DNA of 64,000 bases, from NCBI RefSeq assembly GCF_019052805.1, contig NZ_JAHQRJ010000001.1, forward strand, positions 3,038,001-3,102,000, given 5' to 3'. The notes under the pieces were generated by a model. It was not told the origin of the DNA. It saw only the letters and a list, made by a program, of their open reading frames with translations, and did not search any database. This stretch comes from Noviherbaspirillum sp. L7-7A. Lineage in GTDB: Bacteria > Pseudomonadota > Gammaproteobacteria > Burkholderiales > Burkholderiaceae_D. Shown here one piece after another: positions 9,045 through 49,871 of the stretch (position 1 is the stretch's first letter; every line of letters begins with the position of its first letter). The position numbers and the translations under genes are program-made.

Positions 9045-9136
9045 CTATGAAACCGGTAGCGTTTGAAGTACGCGCAGCGACAGTTGCCGTTGCGTTTGCT
9101 TTTGACGTGGCAGGTCAAGTCCCCGTTGAGCGCGCC

Positions 9137-9234
9137 GTGCCGGCGATGCCTGAAGCGGATAAGGTGCGGCGTCTGTCTGAGCGAAACGCAGTGTAGCGAG
9201 TTTAGCCGCGCCCCGCTTCAGGCGTCGACGGCAC
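9137..9234. repeat. Imperfect 22-bp inverted repeat with 54-base loop
   Basis: The left arm at 9137-9158 (GTGCCGGCGATGCCTGAAGC onward) pairs with the right arm at 9213-9234 (CCGCTTCAGGCGTCGACGGC onward) at 20 of 22 positions. The loop contains GTCTGTCTGAGCGAAACGCA, a string of the kind I associate with dispersed intergenic repeats of beta- and gammaproteobacteria. Confidence 0.55.
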
Positions 9235-9239
9235 GGGGA

Positions 9240-9254
9240 CCCCGCGCAGCGGGG
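9240..9254. repeat. GC-rich 6-bp hairpin
   Basis: CCCCGC-GCA-GCGGGG. It lies between the large inverted repeat and the 9281 hairpin and is probably part of the same composite element. Confidence 0.45.
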
Positions 9255-9280
9255 CGCGATCACCGGGTCGCCTTTTTTGC

Positions 9281-9310
9281 CCCTCTTTTTTGGCGAAGCA
9301 AAAAAGAGGG
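9281..9310. repeat. Perfect 12-bp hairpin with A/T core
   Basis: CCCTCTTTTTTG, loop GCGAAG, then CAAAAAAGAGGG. Because it is symmetric it could end transcripts from either side, but no gene lies close enough to need it on the left. Similar hairpins followed by TCGCCTGCCGGGG-type sequence occur as repeats in related genomes, as far as I recall. Confidence 0.6.
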
Positions 9311-9617
9311 TCGCCTGCCGGGGCGAACTCCCGGCCTGGTCATGATGCAAGGACATGCGTATTGGGTCATCAGGCGTGAAGGCGTCACCGCGAAGCAGCA
9401 GTTGCTCTTAAAGCGAGCGATTCAAAACGACCTCACTACCGTCAAAACAAGTTGACGAAATGCGCCTTTAAACCAATTACCCCCCTGCGACACACCTTCC
9501 CTGCCTCATACCCCGCCCACACGGCCGCCACCAACCGCGCTGGCAGCCCGAAAGCCCCAGCCATCCCCATTACGTCGACGCAAACCCACCCCAAAAAATC
9601 GTATGTAAAATTTTTTC

Positions 9618-10155: not shown

Positions 10156-10662
10156 ATGGATCAACAACTGCAGAGCGTCTTGCGCTATCTCGAAGACAAC
10201 AAGCTCAAGCTGGTCACCGCCGAATCCTGCACCGCCGGCATGATTGCCTCAACCCTGGCCGACGCGCCGGGCAGCGGGCAATGGCTGGAATGCGCCTTCG
10301 TCACCTACTCGGAGGAAGCCAAGATGCGCTGCCTGGGTGTGAAGCAGGAGACCATCGAACGCTACAACCTCACCAGCGAGGAAGTGGCGCGCGAAATGGC
10401 CGAGGGCGCGCTGGCCTGCACCCGCGCCAATGTCGCCATTTCCGACACCGGCGTCGCCGGCCCCGGCCCCGGCGAGGGCGGCATCGCACCCGGCACCATC
10501 TGCTTTGCCTGGTCGTTCGAGCACAAGGGCAAGGTTGCCACCTTCACCGAGACCCGGCGCTTCGAGGGCGACCGCAACGAAGTCCGCAAGGCCGGCACCG
10601 GCTATGCGTTGAAGCGCATCTGGCATTACCACAATGAAGCACAGGGCGCGAATGCCGCATAG
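10156..10662 (+). CDS. CinA C-terminal domain protein (nicotinamide-nucleotide amidohydrolase, PncC type)
   Basis: 168-residue stand-alone CinA C-terminal domain. The family enzyme deamidates nicotinamide mononucleotide to recycle pyridine nucleotides. Seen motifs: TAESCTAGMIASTL, FVTYSEEAKMRCLGV, and SDTGVAGPGPGEGG followed by PGTICFAW. The N-terminal molybdopterin-binding-like half of full CinA is absent, as in E. coli PncC/YdeJ. ATG 10156 is preceded by GGAAA. Confidence 0.88.
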   Translation: MDQQLQSVLRYLEDNKLKLVTAESCTAGMIASTLADAPGSGQWLECAFVTYSEEAKMRCLGVKQETIERYNLTSEEVAREMAEGALACTRANVAISDTGVAGPGPGEGGIAPGTICFAWSFEHKGKVATFTETRRFEGDRNEVRKAGTGYALKRIWHYHNEAQGANAA

Positions 10663-10697
10663 GACGCTGGTCCCATCGGCCGGCGCCGCGCCGGCGG

Positions 10698-10898
10698 TCA
10701 GCGCTTCTGCTCGATACGCCTGAATTCCGCGTCCGAATCCGGCACGCCCTCGATCATCTGCTGCAAGGCGCGAGCGTCATTGAGCGCCTCGTCGCCGCTT
10801 TCCTCCGGCCGGTCGCGATCGGCTTCCTCCTGGCCAGGCTGTCTGCTCTGGTCATTGCCGGCGCGCTGCGCGCCGGGCTTTCCGGTTTCCATTCCCAT
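10698..10898 (-). CDS. Small hydrophilic protein, function unknown
   Basis: 66 residues, very polar and acidic (QSRQPGQEEADRDRPEESGD), with no hydrophobic segment and no cysteine, probably largely disordered at the N-terminus. It has a strong ribosome site, GAGGAGAACGGA before the ATG, which is why I accept it as a gene. It converges with the CinA-like gene across 35 bases. No family recognised. Confidence 0.55.
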   Translation of the reverse strand: MGMETGKPGAQRAGNDQSRQPGQEEADRDRPEESGDEALNDARALQQMIEGVPDSDAEFRRIEQKR

Positions 10899-10999
10899 TC
10901 CGTTCTCCTCGATGATGTTGTGCCGCCATGGTTGGACCGGTCCGCGCCGCCATCATTCTGCAAGCGGTTTATGCATGATCAATGAGGGCAATTGATTGA

Positions 11000-11029
11000 T
11001 TGCCTGATGGAAATAAAATGTGGTATAAG
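11000..11029 (+). promoter_or_regulatory. Candidate sigma-70 promoter of the light-sensor operon
   Basis: TTGCCT at 11000-11005, 18-base spacer, TATAAG at 11024-11029 with a TGG just ahead, about 60 bases before the start of the PYP-like gene. The spacing is acceptable and this is the most AT-rich part of the gap. Read by eye only. Confidence 0.35.
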
Positions 11030-11089
11030 TATATTTCTACGAAGAAATTTTCTCGATTTCCCAGTTTACCGGCTCAGCCCTATTTCTCC

Positions 11090-11482
11090 ATGACCCAGCT
11101 AGCACAATACGCTTTCGCCCAGCCCGAACTGCTTCCCATCCTGACATCCGCATCGCCGGAGTTGCTGGACAGCCTGGACTTCGGGCTGATCGGTTTCGAC
11201 GCCGACGGCATGGTCCGTCAGTACAACGCTTTCGAGTCGCGCGCTGCCGGCCTGTCGCCGCAGCGGGTGCTCGGCCAGTCCCTGTTCACCCATGTCGCGC
11301 CCTGCATGAACAATTTCATGGTGGCCCAGCGCTTCGAGGATGCCGCCGGCGCCGGCAGCGCGCTGGATGACACCATCGACTATGTACTGACCCTGCGCAT
11401 GCGGCCCGTGAAGGTCAAGCTGCGCCTGCTGTCAGCCCCGGCGCAGGCCATGCGCTATGTGCTGATCCAGCGCGCGCTGTAG
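11090..11482 (+). CDS. Photoactive-yellow-protein-like PAS sensor
   Basis: 130-residue single PAS-domain protein. From ATG 11090 it aligns without a gap, at a constant offset of three, to Halorhodospira PYP from the first strand to the chromophore cysteine: QYNAFE carries Tyr45 and Glu49 (PYP Tyr42, Glu46) and HVAPC carries Cys72 (PYP Cys69, the p-coumarate thioester). Farther on, MRPVKVK matches PYP MTPTKVK. Thr50 and Arg52 of PYP are replaced by Ala and Leu. Chromophore binding is therefore plausible but unproven; no tyrosine ammonia-lyase or coumarate ligase lies in the window. It opens a three-gene operon with two c-di-GMP enzymes. An earlier in-frame ATG (11000) would add 30 residues with no PAS match. 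Confidence 0.75.
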   Translation: MTQLAQYAFAQPELLPILTSASPELLDSLDFGLIGFDADGMVRQYNAFESRAAGLSPQRVLGQSLFTHVAPCMNNFMVAQRFEDAAGAGSALDDTIDYVLTLRMRPVKVKLRLLSAPAQAMRYVLIQRAL

Positions 11483-11494
11483 GCAAGGCCCGGC

Positions 11495-12814
11495 GTGGAA
11501 AACCTGGAAAGCGAATACGAGGCGCTGCTGCAGTTCCTGTACCTGGCGCCGGTGGGCATCGTCCAGACCGCACTGGACGGATCGATTGCCATGATCAATC
11601 CGCTGTCGGCGCAATTGCTGATGCCCCTGTCGCGCGACGGCAGCCTGGACAACCTGTTCGACGCGCTCGAACAGGTGGCGCCGGAACTGCGCAACATGGT
11701 AAGCCAGTTCCCGCAGCCGCACGGCACGGTCTGCGACAGCCTGCGGGTGCAGCTTTCGGCCGGCATTCCCGGCAAGAAGGATGCGCGCATGCTGTCGCTG
11801 ACGGTGCTGAAACTGGACGACAGCCGCATGATGGCCGTCATCAGCGACATTACCCAGGCGGTGCGGCGGGAACGCCAGCTGAAGCAGAGCGAGGCCTGGT
11901 TCAGCGCGGTGCTGACCGGCATTACCGATTACGCGCTGATGTCGCTCGATCCGAGTGGCCGCGTCGAATCCTGGAACCAGAGCATTGCCCGGGTCACCGG
12001 CTACAGCGAGCGCGCCGTGATCGGCCGCCAGATTTCACTGTTCCATCCGTCCGGCGCCATCACCAGCGACCGCATCGCCGACCGCCTGGTGGAAGCCGAT
12101 GCCAACGGCTGGAGCCTGGACAATGGCTGGTGCATGCGTGCCGACGGCAGCCGCTTCTGGGGCAACACCATGATCGCGCCGCTGTCGCGCGATGACGACC
12201 TGCCCGAGGAAGAGCGCGGCTATGCGCTGATCATCCGCGACATCACCGACAAGCGCGAAGCAGGCGACAGCGTGCTGCGCGCCAGCGCCTGCGACTACCT
12301 GACCGGCATCGCCAACCGCCGCACCTTCTTCGAGGCGGCCGAACTGGAGCTGGAGCGCTGGCGCCGCTTTCCGCGGCCGCTGTCGGTGGTGGCCATCGAT
12401 GCCGACTTCTTCAAGCAGATCAACGACACCTGGGGCCATCCGGCGGGCGACGAGGTGCTGCGCAACCTGGCGCAGACGCTGTCGGCCACGGTGCGGGAAA
12501 TCGATGTGGTGGCGCGCCTGGGCGGCGAGGAATTCGCGGCGCTCCTGCCCTCCACCGACCTCGAGGGCGCATTCAAGCTGGCCGAGCGCTTTCGCACCGC
12601 GGTCGAAAGCCAGCGGGTGATGGTGGGCAGCCAGGAAATCCGCTACACCGTCAGCGTCGGGGTGGCCAGCATGGACAGCCAGATCAGCGGCATGGACCAG
12701 TTGCTGAAACTGGCCGACAGCGCGCTTTACGCCGCCAAGAAGGCCGGCCGCAACCAGGTCTGGCCCAGGCGCTCGGACCATGTGCTGGCAGGGCCGGAAG
12801 TTGGCGCTGCATGA
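11495..12814 (+). CDS. PAS-PAS-GGDEF diguanylate cyclase
   Basis: 439 residues from a GTG at 11495, with AAGG six bases before. Residues about 3-125 form a first PAS-like domain (LAPVGIVQTALDGSIAMINP), about 128-258 a second (DYALMSLDPSGRVESWNQS), ending in the usual IIRDITDKREA. The GGDEF domain, about 263-425, has DYLTGIANRRTFF, an intact GGEEF signature in ARLGGEEFAALL and an RxxD inhibitory site (REID) five residues before it. It lacks a membrane helix, so it is a soluble sensor cyclase. It starts 12 bases after the PYP-like gene and overlaps the next by four, so all three should be one transcript. Confidence 0.88.
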   Translation: MENLESEYEALLQFLYLAPVGIVQTALDGSIAMINPLSAQLLMPLSRDGSLDNLFDALEQVAPELRNMVSQFPQPHGTVCDSLRVQLSAGIPGKKDARMLSLTVLKLDDSRMMAVISDITQAVRRERQLKQSEAWFSAVLTGITDYALMSLDPSGRVESWNQSIARVTGYSERAVIGRQISLFHPSGAITSDRIADRLVEADANGWSLDNGWCMRADGSRFWGNTMIAPLSRDDDLPEEERGYALIIRDITDKREAGDSVLRASACDYLTGIANRRTFFEAAELELERWRRFPRPLSVVAIDADFFKQINDTWGHPAGDEVLRNLAQTLSATVREIDVVARLGGEEFAALLPSTDLEGAFKLAERFRTAVESQRVMVGSQEIRYTVSVGVASMDSQISGMDQLLKLADSALYAAKKAGRNQVWPRRSDHVLAGPEVGAA

Positions 12815-14553
12815 CGCCTGAGCCGGAGCAGCCTGGCATGCCGCAGGCCGAGGGCAATGCGGCTCGCCTGCTGGAACTGCGGCTGCTCCAGCGCTCGGTG
12901 GAGGCCAGCGCCAATGCCATGGTCATTACCAGCGCGGCCGGGCCGGATTTCGTCATCGAATATGTGAATCCGGCATTCGAGCGCATCACCGGCTTCAGCG
13001 CGGCCGAATCGCTTGGCCGCAATTGCAAGTTCCTGCAGGCCGGCGACGACGAGCAGGAAGGCCTGGTGGAAATCCGGCGGGCGCTGCGCGAGCAACGCGC
13101 CGGCAATGCCGTGCTGCGCAATTACCGCAAGGACGGCACGCCATTCTGGAACCATCTCTACATTGCCCCCGTGACCGATGCGCAGGGCACGGTCACCCAT
13201 TTCGTCGCTTCCCAGTACGACGTCACCGAAACCCGCAGCGTGCAGGAAGCGCTGCACCACCTGGCTACGCATGATCCGCTGACCGGCCTGCCGAACCGTA
13301 CGCTGCTGCATGACCGGCTGCAACGCATGATGGCCGCCGCACAGCGCCACAACAGCCAGATCTGGGTAGTGTTCCTGGACCTGGACCGCTTCAAGTTCTT
13401 CAACGACAGCCTGGGCCACAAGGCTGGCGACACCTTCCTGAAGACCGTGGCCGAACGGCTGCAGCATGTGCTGCGCCAGACCGATACCGTGGCCCGCCTT
13501 GGCGGCGATGAATTCGTGCTGCTGTTGAGCGAACAGCCTGGCACCCGGCTCAATTTCGTGCTGCTGGACCGCATTGCCCATGCAATCGGCCAGGGCATCA
13601 CGTTCGAACAGAAGGAATTCTTCCTCGGCTGCAGCATGGGCGTGGCCGCCTACCCGGCCGACGGCGTCAATGCCAATGCGCTGATCGAGCGGGCCGACCT
13701 GGCGATGTTCCAGGCCAAGGAGCGCGGCCGCGGCAATTACCAGTTCTATACCGCCGACATGAATGCCCGCGCGCTGGAACGGCTGCGCATCGATAATGCG
13801 CTGCGCACGGCGCTGGAGCGCGGTGAAATGCTGCTGCAATACCAGCCGCAGCTCGATCTCGAAAGCGGCCGCGTGGTCGGCATGGAAGCGCTGCTGCGCT
13901 GGCACCATCCGGACATGGGCCTGGTGCCGCCGGACCGCTTCATTGCGGTGGCGGAAGAGACCGGGCTGATCGTGCCGATCGGCGACTGGGTGCTGCGCAC
14001 GGCCTGCCGCCAGGTGCGCGCGCTGCACGACGCGGGCTTTGCGCAGATGCGGGTGGCAGTCAATCTCTCGGCCCGGCAGTTCGGCCACAGGGAACTGCTG
14101 GCCAGCATCGAGGCGGCGCTGTCCGAAGCCGGCATTGCGCCGCGCTTCCTGGAAATCGAGCTGACCGAAAGCCTGATCATGAAGGATGTGGACCAGGCGA
14201 TCCGCATCCTCAACGACCTGAAGTGCCTGGGCGTGACGCTGTCGATCGACGACTTCGGCACCGGCTATTCCAGCCTGGCCTACCTGAAACGCTTCCCGCT
14301 CGACATCCTGAAGATCGACCGCTCCTTCGTGGCCGACGTCAATGCCGACCCTGACGACGCGGCCATCGTCGCGTCCATCATTTCACTGGCGCACAACCTG
14401 CGCCTGAAGGTCATCGCGGAAGGCGTGGAAACCGGCGAGCAGCTGGCCTACCTGCGCCAGCTGGGCTGCGATCAGATGCAGGGGTATTACTTCAGCAAGC
14501 CGGTGGCGTTTGACGGGATTGAGCTGCTGATGCGGTCGGGGCGGGGGTTGTAG
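12811..14553 (+). CDS. LOV-GGDEF-EAL blue-light-type c-di-GMP enzyme
   Basis: 580 residues. Residues about 28-145 are a LOV domain: GRNCKFLQ holds the flavin-adduct Cys72, and FMN-contact residues Asn104 (LRNYRKDG), Asn114 (FWNHLY) and Gln135 (ASQYDV) fall 32, 42 and 63 residues later, the same spacing as in phototropin LOV2. Then come a GGDEF domain with intact GGDEF and an RxxD site (RQTD), and an EAL domain with EALLRW, NLSARQF, the metal-binding DDFGTGYSSL and EGVET, all consistent with active phosphodiesterase. It starts inside the stop of the cyclase gene (ATGA). Blue light probably shifts the balance of the two activities. Confidence 0.9.
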   Translation: MTPEPEQPGMPQAEGNAARLLELRLLQRSVEASANAMVITSAAGPDFVIEYVNPAFERITGFSAAESLGRNCKFLQAGDDEQEGLVEIRRALREQRAGNAVLRNYRKDGTPFWNHLYIAPVTDAQGTVTHFVASQYDVTETRSVQEALHHLATHDPLTGLPNRTLLHDRLQRMMAAAQRHNSQIWVVFLDLDRFKFFNDSLGHKAGDTFLKTVAERLQHVLRQTDTVARLGGDEFVLLLSEQPGTRLNFVLLDRIAHAIGQGITFEQKEFFLGCSMGVAAYPADGVNANALIERADLAMFQAKERGRGNYQFYTADMNARALERLRIDNALRTALERGEMLLQYQPQLDLESGRVVGMEALLRWHHPDMGLVPPDRFIAVAEETGLIVPIGDWVLRTACRQVRALHDAGFAQMRVAVNLSARQFGHRELLASIEAALSEAGIAPRFLEIELTESLIMKDVDQAIRILNDLKCLGVTLSIDDFGTGYSSLAYLKRFPLDILKIDRSFVADVNADPDDAAIVASIISLAHNLRLKVIAEGVETGEQLAYLRQLGCDQMQGYYFSKPVAFDGIELLMRSGRGL

Positions 14554-14606
14554 GGAAGGATTGGTCGGATGCACGCCGCTGGAGCGGGCATCCGGGAAGA
14601 ACTGGA

Positions 14607-15086
14607 TTACTTGCAGAGATTCTTACCGATACAGGTACCGCCGACGCTCCAGGTCACCTTTCCAGCGGCATAGTTTGGATTCAATATATAAGTCTCACCC
14701 TTAAGGCCCTCGCCTGTAATAGCAGTAGCTGTAATGACGCCGTTAGTGGTGTTCAGGCTCGTGACGTATTTGGAAAGATTAGCGGGCGTTGCTGAAGCAT
14801 TGGAAGAAGTGCCGGAACTGCCCGACGAAGGCGGAAAATTTTCCGGAATCTGGTTTGTACCCGCATTGCAGCCGGTCAAGGTATCCAGATCCTGGGCGCA
14901 AATTTCCACGCCGATCTTCGCTGCCGACGTTGCAAGCACTACCTCAGTGAATTTGGCTCTTTTCGTATAGTCCTGATAAGCCGGCAGCGCCACCGCGGCC
15001 AGGATGCCAATAATGGCTACAACGATCATCAGTTCGATCAGGGTAAAGCCGCTTGCGCGGCCGCGCGGGTAAGGTTGTTTGATCAT
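14607..15086 (-). CDS. pilA: Type IV pilin (PilA-like major pilin precursor)
   Basis: 159-residue prepilin. A short basic leader ends in Gly before [20 protein letters not shown], the class IVa N-terminal helix with Glu5. The C-terminal part has four cysteines: one pair brackets a Ser/Gly/Asn-rich loop ([11 protein letters not shown]) and the last pair ends the protein (CIGKNLCK), forming the D-region loop. GGAGC precedes the ATG. A sigma-54 element lies about 65 bases upstream, the standard control for pilA through PilS/PilR. Gene symbol given on family grounds; other pilins may exist in the genome. Confidence 0.88.
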
Positions 15087-16004: not shown

Positions 16005-16265
16005 TTATTGCGCCCTTGCCGGCACGCTGCTGTTAGTCGACTGGCGGGCCTGCGCCTGGGTCTGGGTCTTTTCCGCGTCCTTCTTGTTGGCGCGATGCCG
16101 GCCAACCGCGCAACCGGCCGCAGCACCCAGCACGCCGTGACTGCCGGCCACATGGCCAGCCACGCCGCCGACGGCGGCACCCTTGAGACAACCCTTGGCC
16201 GAGGCAGCGCCGGACAGGCCGGCAAGCGAGGCAAACAGGCATACGGCGATCAGCTTGGCTTTCAT
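16005..16265 (-). CDS. Exported glycine-zipper protein
   Basis: 86 residues. Signal peptide MKAKLIAVCLFASLAGLSGAASA, then a glycine-zipper segment (KGAAVGGVAGHVAGSHGVLG) of the kind that packs in the outer membrane or periplasm, then a polar Gln/Thr-rich tail. ATG 16265 was chosen because AAGGAG lies five bases before it; a GTG one codon earlier is possible. Its role is unknown; relatives are often called osmotically inducible or 17-kDa-antigen-like. Confidence 0.7.
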   Translation of the reverse strand: MKAKLIAVCLFASLAGLSGAASAKGCLKGAAVGGVAGHVAGSHGVLGAAAGCAVGRHRANKKDAEKTQTQAQARQSTNSSVPARAQ

Positions 16266-45395: not shown

Positions 45396-46699
45396 AGCGG
45401 CTCGGCCAGCGCCGTTGGGCTGGCGGCATGGAATGCATAGCGGCCCTTGCCGCTGCTCTTGGCCATGTACATCGCCAGGTCGGCATTGCGCAGCAGTGAA
45501 GCAGCGCAGGTGCCGTCCTGCGGATACACGCTGATGCCGATCGATGCCTGGGTCTGGCGGCATCCGTGGTCGTTCAGCATGAAGTCCTCCGCCAGGGCAG
45601 TAATGATGCGGTGGGCGACCTGGACGATCTCGGCGTGATCGGCTTCGGCCAGCACGATCACGAATTCATCCCCGCCCAGGCGCGCCAGCTTGTCTTCCGT
45701 ACGGACGGCCGCGGCCAGCCGGCCGGCGGCGGCCGCCAGCAGCGCGTCGCCGGCATCATGGCCGCAGGCGTCATTGACGGATTTGAAGTCGTCCAGATCG
45801 ATGAACAGCACCGCCAGGCTGGAAGCGGTGGCAGCGGCCGCCTCGATTGCACGGGGCAGGAAATTGGTCAGCCACAGACGGTTGGGCAAACCGGTCAGTG
45901 CATCCACGTGGGCCATTTTCATCAGGATGTCCTGATTCGCCCTGGCCTCGGAGATGTCGCGCAGCGTGATCACCAGTCCGGCGTCGGCGCGTACCAGGCG
46001 CCGCTGCAGGCAGACGCGCTCGCCGTCACGTCCGGTTTCGAGCTCTTCCTCATGCGAACCGGCTGCCATTGCGTGGCGGCATGCCTGGACCAGGCCGGCA
46101 ATTCCTTCCCTGTCGCGTAGTTCGCTCAGCCGCCTGCCCAGCAGGTCGCGACACGACAGCCCGGCATGCCCGGCGCCGCGCTCATTGCAGTCCTGAATGA
46201 TGAAATCGGTTACGTGGCTACCGTGGCCCTGTAGCGGGCGCAGGATAAGGAGGCCTTCCTTGCCGGCGTCCATGGCGCTCAGACAGGCACTGCGGACTTG
46301 CTCGGCATGCTGCCTGCGTTTCTCCAGACGTACAGCCAGCAGCATCCCGACCAGCCCCAGACCGAACAGCAGCATGTTGGCGAAGAACAGGTGCTGATGC
46401 ACCAGTTGCTGGTGCCTGGCCAGCATTGCAGGCGCAGAAAGATCGGGCGCTGCAGGCAGAGGGCTGCTTTCCGGTTCCGGCTCGATCGTCGCATTTGCAT
46501 CGCCGAAAGCCGCATGGTCGATGTCCCACCATTGCAGGCTGAGCCAGAGGACGATGGCGGCCAGACCGCATGCCAGCGGCCAACTTAATGCCGCCGTGAC
46601 CGGGCTCTGTGAACGCCTGGCACTGATGAGCCGGCTGCCCGCGTGATATGCGGTGGGCCGGACGAATGAGGCAGATGAAGGCTTTTGAAAAAAAGGCAT
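45359..46699 (-). CDS. Membrane diguanylate cyclase (2TM-PAS-GGDEF)
   Basis: 446 residues from ATG 46699, with AAGGA eight bases before; the in-frame ATG at 46750 has a weaker ribosome site. Two membrane helices (about 35-55 and 105-125, [20 protein letters not shown]) flank a short periplasmic region of about 50 residues. A PAS-like domain follows ([20 protein letters not shown], ending [14 protein letters not shown]). The GGDEF domain has intact [14 protein letters not shown] and an RxxD inhibitory site (RTED). Divergent from the gene at 46899. Confidence 0.88.
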
Positions 46700-46898
46700 G
46701 AGCTGATCCTTAATCGCACTGTGGGCATCCGAGCTTTTGGAACAAAACATGTTCTTTCATCGCACAAAAAATAGCATTCAAGAAAATTTTTCTCGTGGCA
46801 ATTTATTGTTCAAGCGCAACGCATAGGGATATAGAGAATGGCAATTTTGATAGCCATGCTATATATTTCTGAGGAGAAATTCTCTTGCGATAGCATCG

Positions 46899-48686
46899 AT
46901 GAATCAGCGCCTTCCTCCAGAAACCAGCCCTCAGCATGCCAGCCAGGCGCAGCCATCGAGCATGGGCAAACTTCCATCACCCATGAAAGGCGATGCCCAT
47001 CAGGGCCGTTCAAATGCCGGGGAACAGGCCGGTGCGGCGCTGCTGCAGGCGGCGCAGCGCCTGCGCGAGTCGCGGCAGCAGTTGCATGATCTGACGGCAC
47101 TTGCGCCCTGCCCTTACCTGCTTGCCGGTCATGACGGCATGCTGCTGGAAACCAATCCGGCGCTGTGTGCCATCAGCGGTTACGCGCCGGACGATCTGGC
47201 AGGCCGCAATCTGGCCTGGCTGCTTCCCGGCGGCCCGCGCACGCCAGGCGAGGCCGATGCCATGCTGCCCGGCATTTTCACCTTGCGTCATCGGGATGGC
47301 CATGCGATCCCGGTGCGCCTGCATGCCAGCATGAGCCGGGATGCCAGCGGCGCCCCGGACAGGCTGAGCTGTTTCCTGAGCCGCCCCAACACAGGGCTGC
47401 CGGAAAACCGTGAACAGGAACTGGCCCTGCATGATGCGCTTACCGGCCTGCCCGACCGAACCCTTCTCCATCAGCGGCTGCAGCACATGCTGGAGCAAGC
47501 GGACGGCAAGCCCGTCGCGCTGATGTTCCTCGACATCGACCAGTTTCGCAAAGTCAATGAGGCGCTGGGACACGAAGCGGGCGACCAGCTGCTGCGCCAG
47601 GTGGCCTTGCGCCTGCGCGCCATGCTGCCGGCCGATGGCATCGTCGCCCGCCTGGGCGGCGACGAATTCGTCGTGGCGGCAAGCTGCCCTGCCGGCGCTT
47701 CCGATGCCGCTGCCACTGCCGGCCGCCTGCTGGCGGCGCTGGCCGCGCCATGCACCGTGGCCGGGGAGGAAGTGGGCATCAGCGCATCGATCGGCGTGGC
47801 GATGCATCCGGCCGACGCCACTACCCGCGAAACGTTGTTCCGGCATGCCGACGCCGCGCTGCACCGCGCCAAGGCAGCCGGCCGCAACAGCTGGTGCTTT
47901 TTCGAAGCCGAGGTCAATGCAAGGGCGCGCGCCAGAATGCTGATGGAACAGGCGCTGCACCGGGCGCTGGAACGCGGCGAATTCGAACTGCATTATCAGC
48001 CGCGACTCGATTTGCGCAGCATGGCGGTGACCGGCATGGAAGCTTTGCTGCGCTGGAATCATCCGCACCTGGGCCGGATTGCGCCGCAGGACTTCATTCC
48101 GGTGGCGCAGCAGCTTGACCTGATGGACGACATCGGCCATTGGGCGCTGCGGGAAGCCTGCCTGCAGGGCGGCCGGCTGCAGCGCCAGTTCGGCCGCGCG
48201 CTGCGGGTATCGGTGAATCTGTCAGCACGCCAGCTGTGCCATCCGGCGCTGGGAGAACGGCTGGGCATGGCGCTGGAGGCTGCCGGCCTGGCGCCGCAAC
48301 TGCTGGAACTGGAACTGGCCGAGACTGCCCTGACCGACGATCTTGATGCGGCGGCACGGCGTCTTGCCGCGCTCAAGGCCAGGGGCGTGCGCATTGCCGT
48401 CGACCACTTCGGCGCGGGCGGCGGCGCGCTTGCCTGCATCCAGCATCTGCCGGTCGACACGGTCAAGCTCGATCCGGCGCAGGACAGCGCCAGGCCCGGC
48501 TTCCTGAAAGCGCTGGTCACGCTGGCGCATGCGCTGGACATCCGCGTCACCGCCACCGGCATTGAAACCCCTGCCTTGCGCGAGCGGATGCGCGACGCTG
48601 GCTGTGACGACGGCCAGGGCTACCTGCTGGCGGGACCGCTTTCCCTGGCGGAATTCCAGCTGTTCCTGGCCCGCCTGCCGGCGTAG
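46899..48686 (+). CDS. PAS-GGDEF-EAL protein with degenerate EAL domain
   Basis: 595 residues. Residues about 65-165 are a PAS domain (LAGHDGMLLETNPALCAISG). GGDEF domain: [13 protein letters not shown] is intact, but the RxxD inhibitory site is absent (PADG at that place). The EAL domain keeps EALLRW and NLSARQL, but the metal-binding DDFGTG has become DHFGAG and the catalytic EGVET has become TGIET. It should make c-di-GMP without feedback and not break it down, unless the EAL domain acts as a receptor. No signal peptide; the first 60 residues are probably disordered. Confidence 0.88.
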   Translation: MNQRLPPETSPQHASQAQPSSMGKLPSPMKGDAHQGRSNAGEQAGAALLQAAQRLRESRQQLHDLTALAPCPYLLAGHDGMLLETNPALCAISGYAPDDLAGRNLAWLLPGGPRTPGEADAMLPGIFTLRHRDGHAIPVRLHASMSRDASGAPDRLSCFLSRPNTGLPENREQELALHDALTGLPDRTLLHQRLQHMLEQADGKPVALMFLDIDQFRKVNEALGHEAGDQLLRQVALRLRAMLPADGIVARLGGDEFVVAASCPAGASDAAATAGRLLAALAAPCTVAGEEVGISASIGVAMHPADATTRETLFRHADAALHRAKAAGRNSWCFFEAEVNARARARMLMEQALHRALERGEFELHYQPRLDLRSMAVTGMEALLRWNHPHLGRIAPQDFIPVAQQLDLMDDIGHWALREACLQGGRLQRQFGRALRVSVNLSARQLCHPALGERLGMALEAAGLAPQLLELELAETALTDDLDAAARRLAALKARGVRIAVDHFGAGGGALACIQHLPVDTVKLDPAQDSARPGFLKALVTLAHALDIRVTATGIETPALRERMRDAGCDDGQGYLLAGPLSLAEFQLFLARLPA

Positions 48687-48707
48687 CAGCCCGAGCAGCG
48701 CGCCGGC

Positions 48708-49871
48708 TTACCCGCAAGCACTGGCCGTTTCAGCCAGCCGGACCACATTGCGTCCGGCATGCTTGGCCTTGTAGAGCGCGGCATCGGCACGGCCGAGCAG
48801 TGCGGAAAATGGTTCGTCCCTGTCCAGTGTGGCCACGCCAATGCTGACGGTGTACGCCGTCATCGTCAGGGCGCCCGGCTCGGGCTGCTCCAGCAGTTGC
48901 CGCAGGCGTTGCGCCACATGCATTGCCGCCGCCGTGTCGGAATACGGCAGCAGCAGCGCGAATTCCTCGCCACCCAGGCGGGCGAAGCAGTCGATGTCGC
49001 GCACCATCGCACCGGCACGCCGCACCAGATCGACCAGTACCCGGTCGCCTTCGGCATGGCCGCAACTGTCATTGATCTGCTTGAAGCGGTCCACGTCCAG
49101 CACCAGCAGCGAGACCGGATGGCGGTGACGCTGGGCGCGCCGCAGCTCATGCTCGGCCATCTGGAACAGCGCCCGCCGGGTCCAGGCGCCGGTCAGGTAA
49201 TCGCGGTTGGCCCGGTCATCCGCTTCGGCCAGCAGCCGGTCATGCACCATCATCACCGCACCCATGGTCAGGAGCGGCAGCACCACCGTGCCGACCGAAA
49301 GGAACACCAGGTTGATGGTCGTAGCCTGGTAGAAGGCAGTTTGCATGTCAGGCTGCAGCGCATACATCAGGCCCCGGCCGAGGTGCCCCAGCGCCAGCAG
49401 CAGCGCCACCCCGGCGGTGAAATAAAAGGGATAGCGTGCCCGCGCCTGCGACAGCGAGCGCAGCACGGTCACGCCAATGGCGGCGCAGACTAGGCCATGA
49501 AACATGGAGACCACCACGGTGCGGATTTCAATGGCGTCAATCGCGTAATGGAAAAAGGCCACGCCAGTGACAGTGGCCAGCCAGCCGGCCGCCAGCAGGC
49601 GATACGGCACCGCCTGGCCAAAGAACTGCCTGAAGCCGACATGGATCGCCGCGATCGACAGCGCGAACAAGCCGTTGGCCCCTTCGATCGTCAGCGGGCC
49701 TGGCAGCGTGTCACGTCCGGCGTACAGCAGCAGCGCCACGAAAGCCAGCACATTGGCCGCGCGCCAGGCGCTCACGCCTGCCATGCCGCTGCGCGCCAGC
49801 GATCCGAGGACAAACAGCATGACCACGCACAGCGCGGCCGTGATCAGCAAAAGCGTGATGGGACTCAGCAT
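48708..49871 (-). CDS. Multi-pass membrane diguanylate cyclase
   Basis: 387 residues. The first 205 residues form about six hydrophobic helices, a MASE-like integral sensor (LLLITAALCVVMLFVLGSLA to FLSVGTVVLPLLTMGAVMMV). The GGDEF domain has DYLTGAWTRRALF, an intact GGEEF in ARLGGEEFALLLPY, and an RxxD site (RDID) five residues before. It is convergent with the GGDEF-EAL gene (22-base gap). Confidence 0.9.
   Translation of the reverse strand: MLSPITLLLITAALCVVMLFVLGSLARSGMAGVSAWRAANVLAFVALLLYAGRDTLPGPLTIEGANGLFALSIAAIHVGFRQFFGQAVPYRLLAAGWLATVTGVAFFHYAIDAIEIRTVVVSMFHGLVCAAIGVTVLRSLSQARARYPFYFTAGVALLLALGHLGRGLMYALQPDMQTAFYQATTINLVFLSVGTVVLPLLTMGAVMMVHDRLLAEADDRANRDYLTGAWTRRALFQMAEHELRRAQRHRHPVSLLVLDVDRFKQINDSCGHAEGDRVLVDLVRRAGAMVRDIDCFARLGGEEFALLLPYSDTAAAMHVAQRLRQLLEQPEPGALTMTAYTVSIGVATLDRDEPFSALLGRADAALYKAKHAGRNVVRLAETASACG

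Follow-up and report, generated by a model that had tools for sequence, protein, structure and literature searches.

A free photoactive yellow protein, a candidate receiver domain, and a LOV gene in a putative blue-light module for cyclic di-GMP in Noviherbaspirillum sp. L7-7A

Free photoactive yellow proteins (PYPs) are known to be encoded close to genes of cyclic di-GMP (c-di-GMP) signaling. Clade C of the PYP family, which is defined by the loss of Phe92, Phe96, and Trp119 and the retention of Met100, is often encoded beside a GGDEF gene, GGDEF and EAL both being recorded many times (PMC9664959, 2022), and GGDEF/EAL genes occur in 29 of 113 predicted pyp operons (PMC12826048, 2025); light control of biofilm has been proposed for such loci. 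Statements on these papers refer, here and below, to the parts of their text that were covered. According to PMC9664959, clade C had no characterized member, and the relay of the signal from free PYP was still unknown; the partner of the H. halophila PYP remains unidentified (PMC13250908, 2026, covered in part). Here, we describe a unit of three forward-strand genes in a 64,000-nt stretch of the genome of Noviherbaspirillum sp. L7-7A (contig NZ_JAHQRJ010000001.1, positions 3,038,001 to 3,102,000; hereafter “the window”). The first gene encodes a free clade C PYP, the second a GGDEF-type cyclase, and the third a LOV-GGDEF-EAL protein (Table 1).

The operon is a variant of the known PYP plus GGDEF/EAL arrangement, with the LOV gene as a local twist. 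As in the clade C loci of PMC9664959 and PMC12826048, a free PYP gene is followed by c-di-GMP genes; the front domain shared by the partner enzymes and the LOV gene within the operon are features of the present analysis. In Idiomarina loihiensis, PYP is thought to bind an adjacent GGDEF protein and to regulate biofilm (cited in PMC9664959), but that PYP belongs to clade A. PMC12826048 reports two pyp operons with a BLUF receptor; the BLUF-containing pyp operons of Caballeronia sp. SBC2 described there resemble the present unit in placing two blue-light receptor types within a single predicted operon, BLUF there and LOV here. In Ppr and Ppd, PYP also feeds a kinase or a c-di-GMP output, but as part of one fused chain with a phytochrome, whereas the PYP is free here. 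Lastly, LOV-GGDEF-EAL proteins are a known architecture, and the third gene is a typical example, set apart solely by lying within a pyp operon.

A sequence-only reading of the window had proposed that free PYP, cyclase, and phosphodiesterase genes in one transcript were an undescribed system. That claim is not supported, since PMC9664959 and PMC12826048 already report PYP with GGDEF/EAL neighbors. What is new relative to the literature covered is the N-terminal domain (NTD) of the cyclase as a constant companion of PYP, together with the replacement of an NTD-bearing gene by the LOV gene. The covered parts of the two papers name neither a LOV gene inside a pyp operon nor the NTD as a shared front domain of PYP partner enzymes. 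The sequence-only reading had overlooked the shared NTD, the LOV gene in the NTD-GGDEF-EAL slot, and a second PYP with a ligase gene elsewhere in the genome.

The clade C PYP and the N-terminal domain of its neighbor

The pyp product is a member of the divergent clade C, and for that reason its score against TIGR02373 (photo_yellow), 79.2 bits, falls short of the curated 143.05-bit cut-off. Among solved structures, the best match is the PYP domain of Ppr (1mzu, E = 1.4e-17). The marks of clade C are present: Phe92, Phe96, and Trp119 are replaced by Ile, Leu, and Tyr, and Met100 is retained, as it is at 77 of 79 loci (the window and 78 relatives). All 79 loci retain Tyr42, Glu46, and Cys69 at the equivalent positions, and with its chromophore residues intact the protein is the PYP-like protein that the sequence-only reading had recognized.

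The GGDEF domain of the putative cyclase scores 158.4 bits against a Pfam threshold of 23.8 and has the motif GGEEF, which is found in 118 of 130 cyclase genes (both locus sets defined below, duplicates included). Ahead of it lies a PAS_9 domain (PAS2; residues 149–252), and ahead of that the NTD, the first ~125 residues, which fall outside any Pfam match. The NTD was first spotted by comparing the 79 loci, since the same domain heads the usual third gene, which encodes an NTD-GGDEF-EAL protein. Database searches with 131 NTD sequences gave nothing convincing: four Pfam families and two NCBIfam families each matched a single member (best E = 0.0023 and 0.0043, respectively), and the NTD profile had no match at E ≤ 1 among PDB sequences. 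A confident structure model (predicted local distance difference test, pLDDT, 89.3) has PAS topology, and the NTD is predicted to be a PAS-fold domain. The PAS-PAS-GGDEF architecture read from the sequence alone is therefore upheld by predicted fold, the first PAS being the domain that Pfam does not recognize. The NTD has a near-invariant cysteine (C77 of alignment A1, present in at least 90% of the 131 sequences), which could bind a ligand or cofactor.

Pairing of PYP and NTD was examined in two sets. Among 392 genomes of the same family, 99 had a PYP match; four weak ones (G158, G226, G332, and G352; E = 5e-4 to 1e-3) were dropped, leaving 95 genomes with 99 strong loci, of which 79 were examined (78 and the window) and 20 left out. 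The second set, the “named” loci, retained 80 of 97 relatives and extends to Paraburkholderia, Cupriavidus, Methyloversatilis, Enterovirga, and metagenomic bins labeled Archangium and Gemmatimonadaceae. The two sets have genomes in common, so their counts are not to be added. Since loci were picked through their PYP, adjacency was tested at PYP loci and presence was tested separately.

Both tests show near-exclusive pairing. At 79/79 family loci and 78/80 named loci, no more than 150 nt separate the PYP stop from the start of the NTD, the two exceptions having the NTD at 195 nt (L190) and at 2.2 kb (L205). The order of pyp followed by an NTD-bearing enzyme gene is found at every family locus (79/79) and, counting the 2.2-kb case, at every named locus (80/80); it recurs beyond chance. 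As for presence, the NTD occurs in 96 of the 392 family genomes and together with a strong clade C PYP in 95, i.e., in 95/95 clade C PYP genomes vs 1/297 others. Across 399 genomes of the order, NTD was found in 11, PYP in 12, and both in 11, with five positives outside the family. The window genome has 2 NTDs against 60 GGDEF domains.

The NTD is constant while the output changes between cyclase, GGDEF-EAL, and histidine kinase. By far the most common layout is NTD-PAS-GGDEF followed by NTD-GGDEF-EAL (55 of 79 family loci). The remainder comprise a cyclase alone (9), NTD-PAS followed by NTD-GGDEF-EAL (4), NTD-GGDEF-EAL alone (3), a fused NTD-PAS-NTD-GGDEF-EAL chain (3), the LOV version (2), and three others (1 each). 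NTD-GGDEF-EAL alone was also seen at 5/80 named loci, and at L140, L184, and L188 the NTD stands at the front of a histidine kinase, named from its motifs, beside a clade C PYP. No natural PYP-NTD fusion turned up at any of the 79 family or 80 named loci. In 115 NTD-GGDEF-EAL genes (both sets, duplicates included), the GGDEF motif is intact in 73, changed in 24, and unread by the pattern in 18; the usual third gene is therefore often bifunctional, as judged by motif, and the look of a pure phosphodiesterase belongs to this genome.

We assign a probability of about 0.6 to the reading that the whole module is a blue-light input for c-di-GMP, in which free PYP acts by docking to the NTD and the LOV protein provides a second input. 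In the proposed mechanism, blue light would alter the shape of the free clade C PYP, provided that this protein carries p-coumarate; in its light or dark state, the PYP would bind or release the NTD by a PAS-PAS contact; and this contact would shift the activity of the attached enzyme up or down. One receptor could then act on a synthase, the adjacent cyclase, and on a phosphodiesterase, an NTD-GGDEF-EAL enzyme encoded elsewhere in the genome (see below), through the same type of docking domain. A broader version, to which we give even odds, sees the NTD as a portable domain dedicated to receiving the signal of free PYP. Through this PAS-fold adaptor, a single soluble photoreceptor would drive cyclases, phosphodiesterases, and histidine kinases, whether adjacent or encoded on another replicon, and the LOV gene would be a natural case in which a built-in blue-light sensor takes the place of “PYP plus receiver.”

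The pairing would also be seen if the NTD were an ordinary PAS domain, for ligand sensing or dimerization, in enzymes that accompany PYP, with PYP addressing PAS2, the enzyme core, or another protein. We consider this unlikely. The predicted PAS fold and the near-invariant cysteine mean that the NTD may bind a ligand of its own, and the coevolution tests do not single it out. However, the NTD is kept at loci without PAS2 (the NTD-GGDEF-EAL-alone loci of both sets) and at those with a histidine kinase as output, and of the 297 family genomes that lack a clade C PYP, 296 also lack the NTD.

Several results weigh against a PYP-NTD relay. Mutual information between PYP and NTD is not above that between PYP and PAS2 or PYP and GGDEF (106 pairs, effective number 46). 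Distance matrices for the same number of pairs gave a partial r of 0.39 for NTD vs 0.07 for PAS2 and 0.19 for GGDEF, with NTD ahead of PAS2 in 93% of subsamples and ahead of GGDEF in 90%, but at the level of raw r a 93-sequence subset gave 0.69 for NTD and 0.70 for PAS2; the correlation is weak and not robust. In a single-chain PYP-NTD model (14 sequences), both domains fold, but a predicted template modeling score (pTM) of 0.53 and a pLDDT below 50 at the joint make the arrangement unreliable. One family genome has the NTD without PYP (G072), and one genome of the order set has PYP-like genes without the NTD (G513). The latter carries four PYP-like genes within 3.5 kb, scoring 81–88 bits (L229).

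On balance, the NTD is a good candidate for the signaling partner of clade C PYP. Paired with that PYP in 95/95 family genomes and found with three kinds of output, it provides a concrete, testable protein pair, and the finding is of interest mainly because the question of the PYP partner becomes testable. If the relay by docking is true, optogenetic control of c-di-GMP would gain a light-gated heterodimer, and other pyp neighborhoods could be read by the same rule.

The LOV gene and the slot that it occupies

The third gene was described from the sequence alone as LOV-GGDEF-EAL, and the domain matches agree. Its GRNCKFLQ sequence, with an NCRFLQ-type cysteine motif, aligns together with flanking residues to 7r5n, 9vf7, and other solved structures that we take to be LOV domains. 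The GGDEF domain scores 154.5 bits and the EAL domain 276.3 bits (Pfam threshold 31.3), and PAS_9 is also matched. The protein is a predicted phosphodiesterase, its EAL catalytic residues being judged by motifs that we assume to be diagnostic. The LOV-activated cyclase 8c05 is among its PDB matches. The LOV-GGDEF-EAL protein would sense blue light within one chain, as a second blue-light input. LOV domains absorb near 450 nm. The absorption of 12 PYPs spans 432–465 nm (PMC12826048), so the two-colour input suggested by the sequence-only reading is unlikely, both receptor types absorbing in the blue; two time scales or redundancy fit better.

Four genomes of the genus were compared: the window genome, N. 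soli (G055), N. suwonense (G015), and N. pedocola (G078). An ortholog of the LOV gene is present only in the window genome and N. pedocola (69% identity), the best matches in N. soli and N. suwonense being 53% paralogs at other places. Colinearity between the window and N. pedocola runs through the LOV gene (11174–14508). By contrast, the LOV gene is cleanly absent from N. soli, where colinearity at 90% extends to position 12814, the base at which the cyclase gene ends, and starts again at 14845; colinearity with N. suwonense ends at 12754 and resumes at 16050. The slot and flanks common to the window and N. pedocola suggest that the LOV gene was present in an ancestor and then lost on two occasions; the gene may also have been gained independently.

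In most relatives, the same slot is filled by NTD-GGDEF-EAL. The LOV gene is not an ortholog of this usual third gene, with GGDEF and EAL identities of ~33% and ~42% vs 72% and 69% to the N. pedocola protein. The NTD-GGDEF-EAL gene has been relocated: it lies on another replicon in the window genome (C2:222940), on contig C83 in N. soli, and on C9 in N. pedocola, and N. suwonense also has a second NTD. The C2 enzyme has a degenerate GGDEF motif (GSDEF) and a presumably intact EAL domain. The LOV gene in the NTD-GGDEF-EAL slot would amount to a natural exchange of relayed for built-in light sensing.

Alternatively, the LOV gene may be an unrelated neighbor, there by chance and with no functional tie to PYP. 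Its restriction to two of the four genus genomes, its lack of orthology to the usual third gene, and the abundance of GGDEF domains in the genome all favor such a neighbor, a reading that we nevertheless find rather doubtful, as slot, strand, overlap, and flanks are the same in N. pedocola and the window despite PYPs that are only 67% identical. A second link between LOV and clade C PYP is possibly found in Paraburkholderia polaris, where a protein that combines a LOV motif (NRNCRFLQ) with GGDEF/EAL-like parts is encoded on the opposite strand beyond the pyp operon (L207:5221-8577). LOV-labeled matches at two other loci (L135 and L171) were not counted as LOV, being 30% matches without the cysteine motif.

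A second PYP and the supply of chromophore

The window genome encodes a second PYP, on contig C3, which is clade A-like and passes the TIGR02373 cut-off at 181.4 bits. Only 2 bases after its gene begins a p-coumarate:CoA-ligase-like (pCL-like) gene (C3:415414-416577), scoring 306 bits against a cut-off of 334.7; the PYP and ligase genes together occupy L110:8990-10608, and no NTD was seen beside this PYP (L110). The proposal that the window genome has no chromophore supply is therefore not upheld as far as the ligase is concerned. With the PYP residues and the LOV signature intact and a pCL-like gene in the genome, the sequence-only view of two types of blue-light receptor beside c-di-GMP enzymes is supported. 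The sole aromatic amino acid lyase of the genome (C1, L111:6720-8345) is HutH-like, at 498.9 and 501 bits under the HutH cut-offs of 539.15 and 524. By its selectivity motif, it looks closer to a histidine than to a tyrosine lyase, though it may be either; no urocanase match was found in the window genome.

A chromophore-free role for the clade C PYP, as a dark scaffold or another kind of sensor with LOV as the only light input, is quite improbable in our view. A pCL match at E ≤ 1e-40 is absent from 34/95 PYP genomes, including the sister species N. soli; the pCL-like gene of the window genome adjoins the other, clade A-like PYP; and the clade lacked a characterized member. On the other hand, the three chromophore residues are invariant at 79/79 loci, and a pCL-type ligase occurs in 61/95 clade C PYP genomes, including 43 of the 77 that have no second, clade A-like PYP, vs 1/297 other family genomes. 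The pCL start lies ~0.5–3.5 kb from the clade C pyp start in 49 genomes (all within 3.6 kb); a clade A-like pyp sits between or beside the two genes in G012 and G053. This distribution supports binding of p-coumarate by clade C PYP.

Layout of the locus and its surroundings

The coordinates of the three genes agree with those read from the sequence alone: all are on the forward strand, with 12 bases between the pyp stop and the cyclase start and an overlap of 4 bases between the cyclase and LOV genes. We take the unit to comprise three genes because the upstream neighbor ends at 10662 and the downstream gene, which we read as pilin-like, lies on the opposite strand (14607–15086). An alternative TTG start at 11000 would extend the first protein to 160 aa; homologs nonetheless align from the region of the ATG. 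Three weak promoter-like matches lie upstream of pyp, at 10992–11056.

Table 1. Features of the putative pyp operon, in window coordinates.
Feature	Position	Strand	Remarks
Putative promoter-like matches, two, weak and overlapping (9 of 12), upstream of pyp	10992–11035	+	–
pyp	11090–11482	+	130 aa, TAG stop; free clade C photoactive yellow protein
Cyclase gene (NTD-PAS-GGDEF)	11495–12814	+	439 aa, GTG start, GGEEF motif
NTD of cyclase gene, candidate PYP receiver	11504–11890	+	Predicted PAS fold, near-invariant Cys
Second PAS (PAS_9) of cyclase	11939–12250	+	Pfam match
GGDEF domain of cyclase	12287–12757	+	Pfam match
LOV-GGDEF-EAL gene	12811–14553	+	580 aa
LOV domain with GRNCKFLQ	12883–13260	+	Aligned to solved LOV domains
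GGDEF domain of LOV protein	13264–13734	+	GGDEF motif intact
EAL domain of LOV protein	13795–14502	+	Pfam match

From this layout we infer that the three genes are cotranscribed. Separate transcripts would be very improbable given the 12-base gap, the 4-base overlap, the pyp-NTD junction kept at 79/79 loci, and a scan of 10600–14700 in which no terminator-like site was found (shuffled sequences average 2.4).

Elsewhere in the window, positions 9071–9371 hold a ~290-bp dispersed repeat with 62 matching pieces in the genome. Many copies are arranged as inverted pairs with a spacing of a few hundred bases, and more copies are found in the sister Noviherbaspirillum loci; the repeat has the appearance of an abundant intergenic element or of one resembling a miniature inverted-repeat transposable element. 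Another GGDEF gene lies at about 2725, and three further GGDEF genes are found within 3.8 kb at 45443–49211 (C1:3083443, 3085424, and 3086747).

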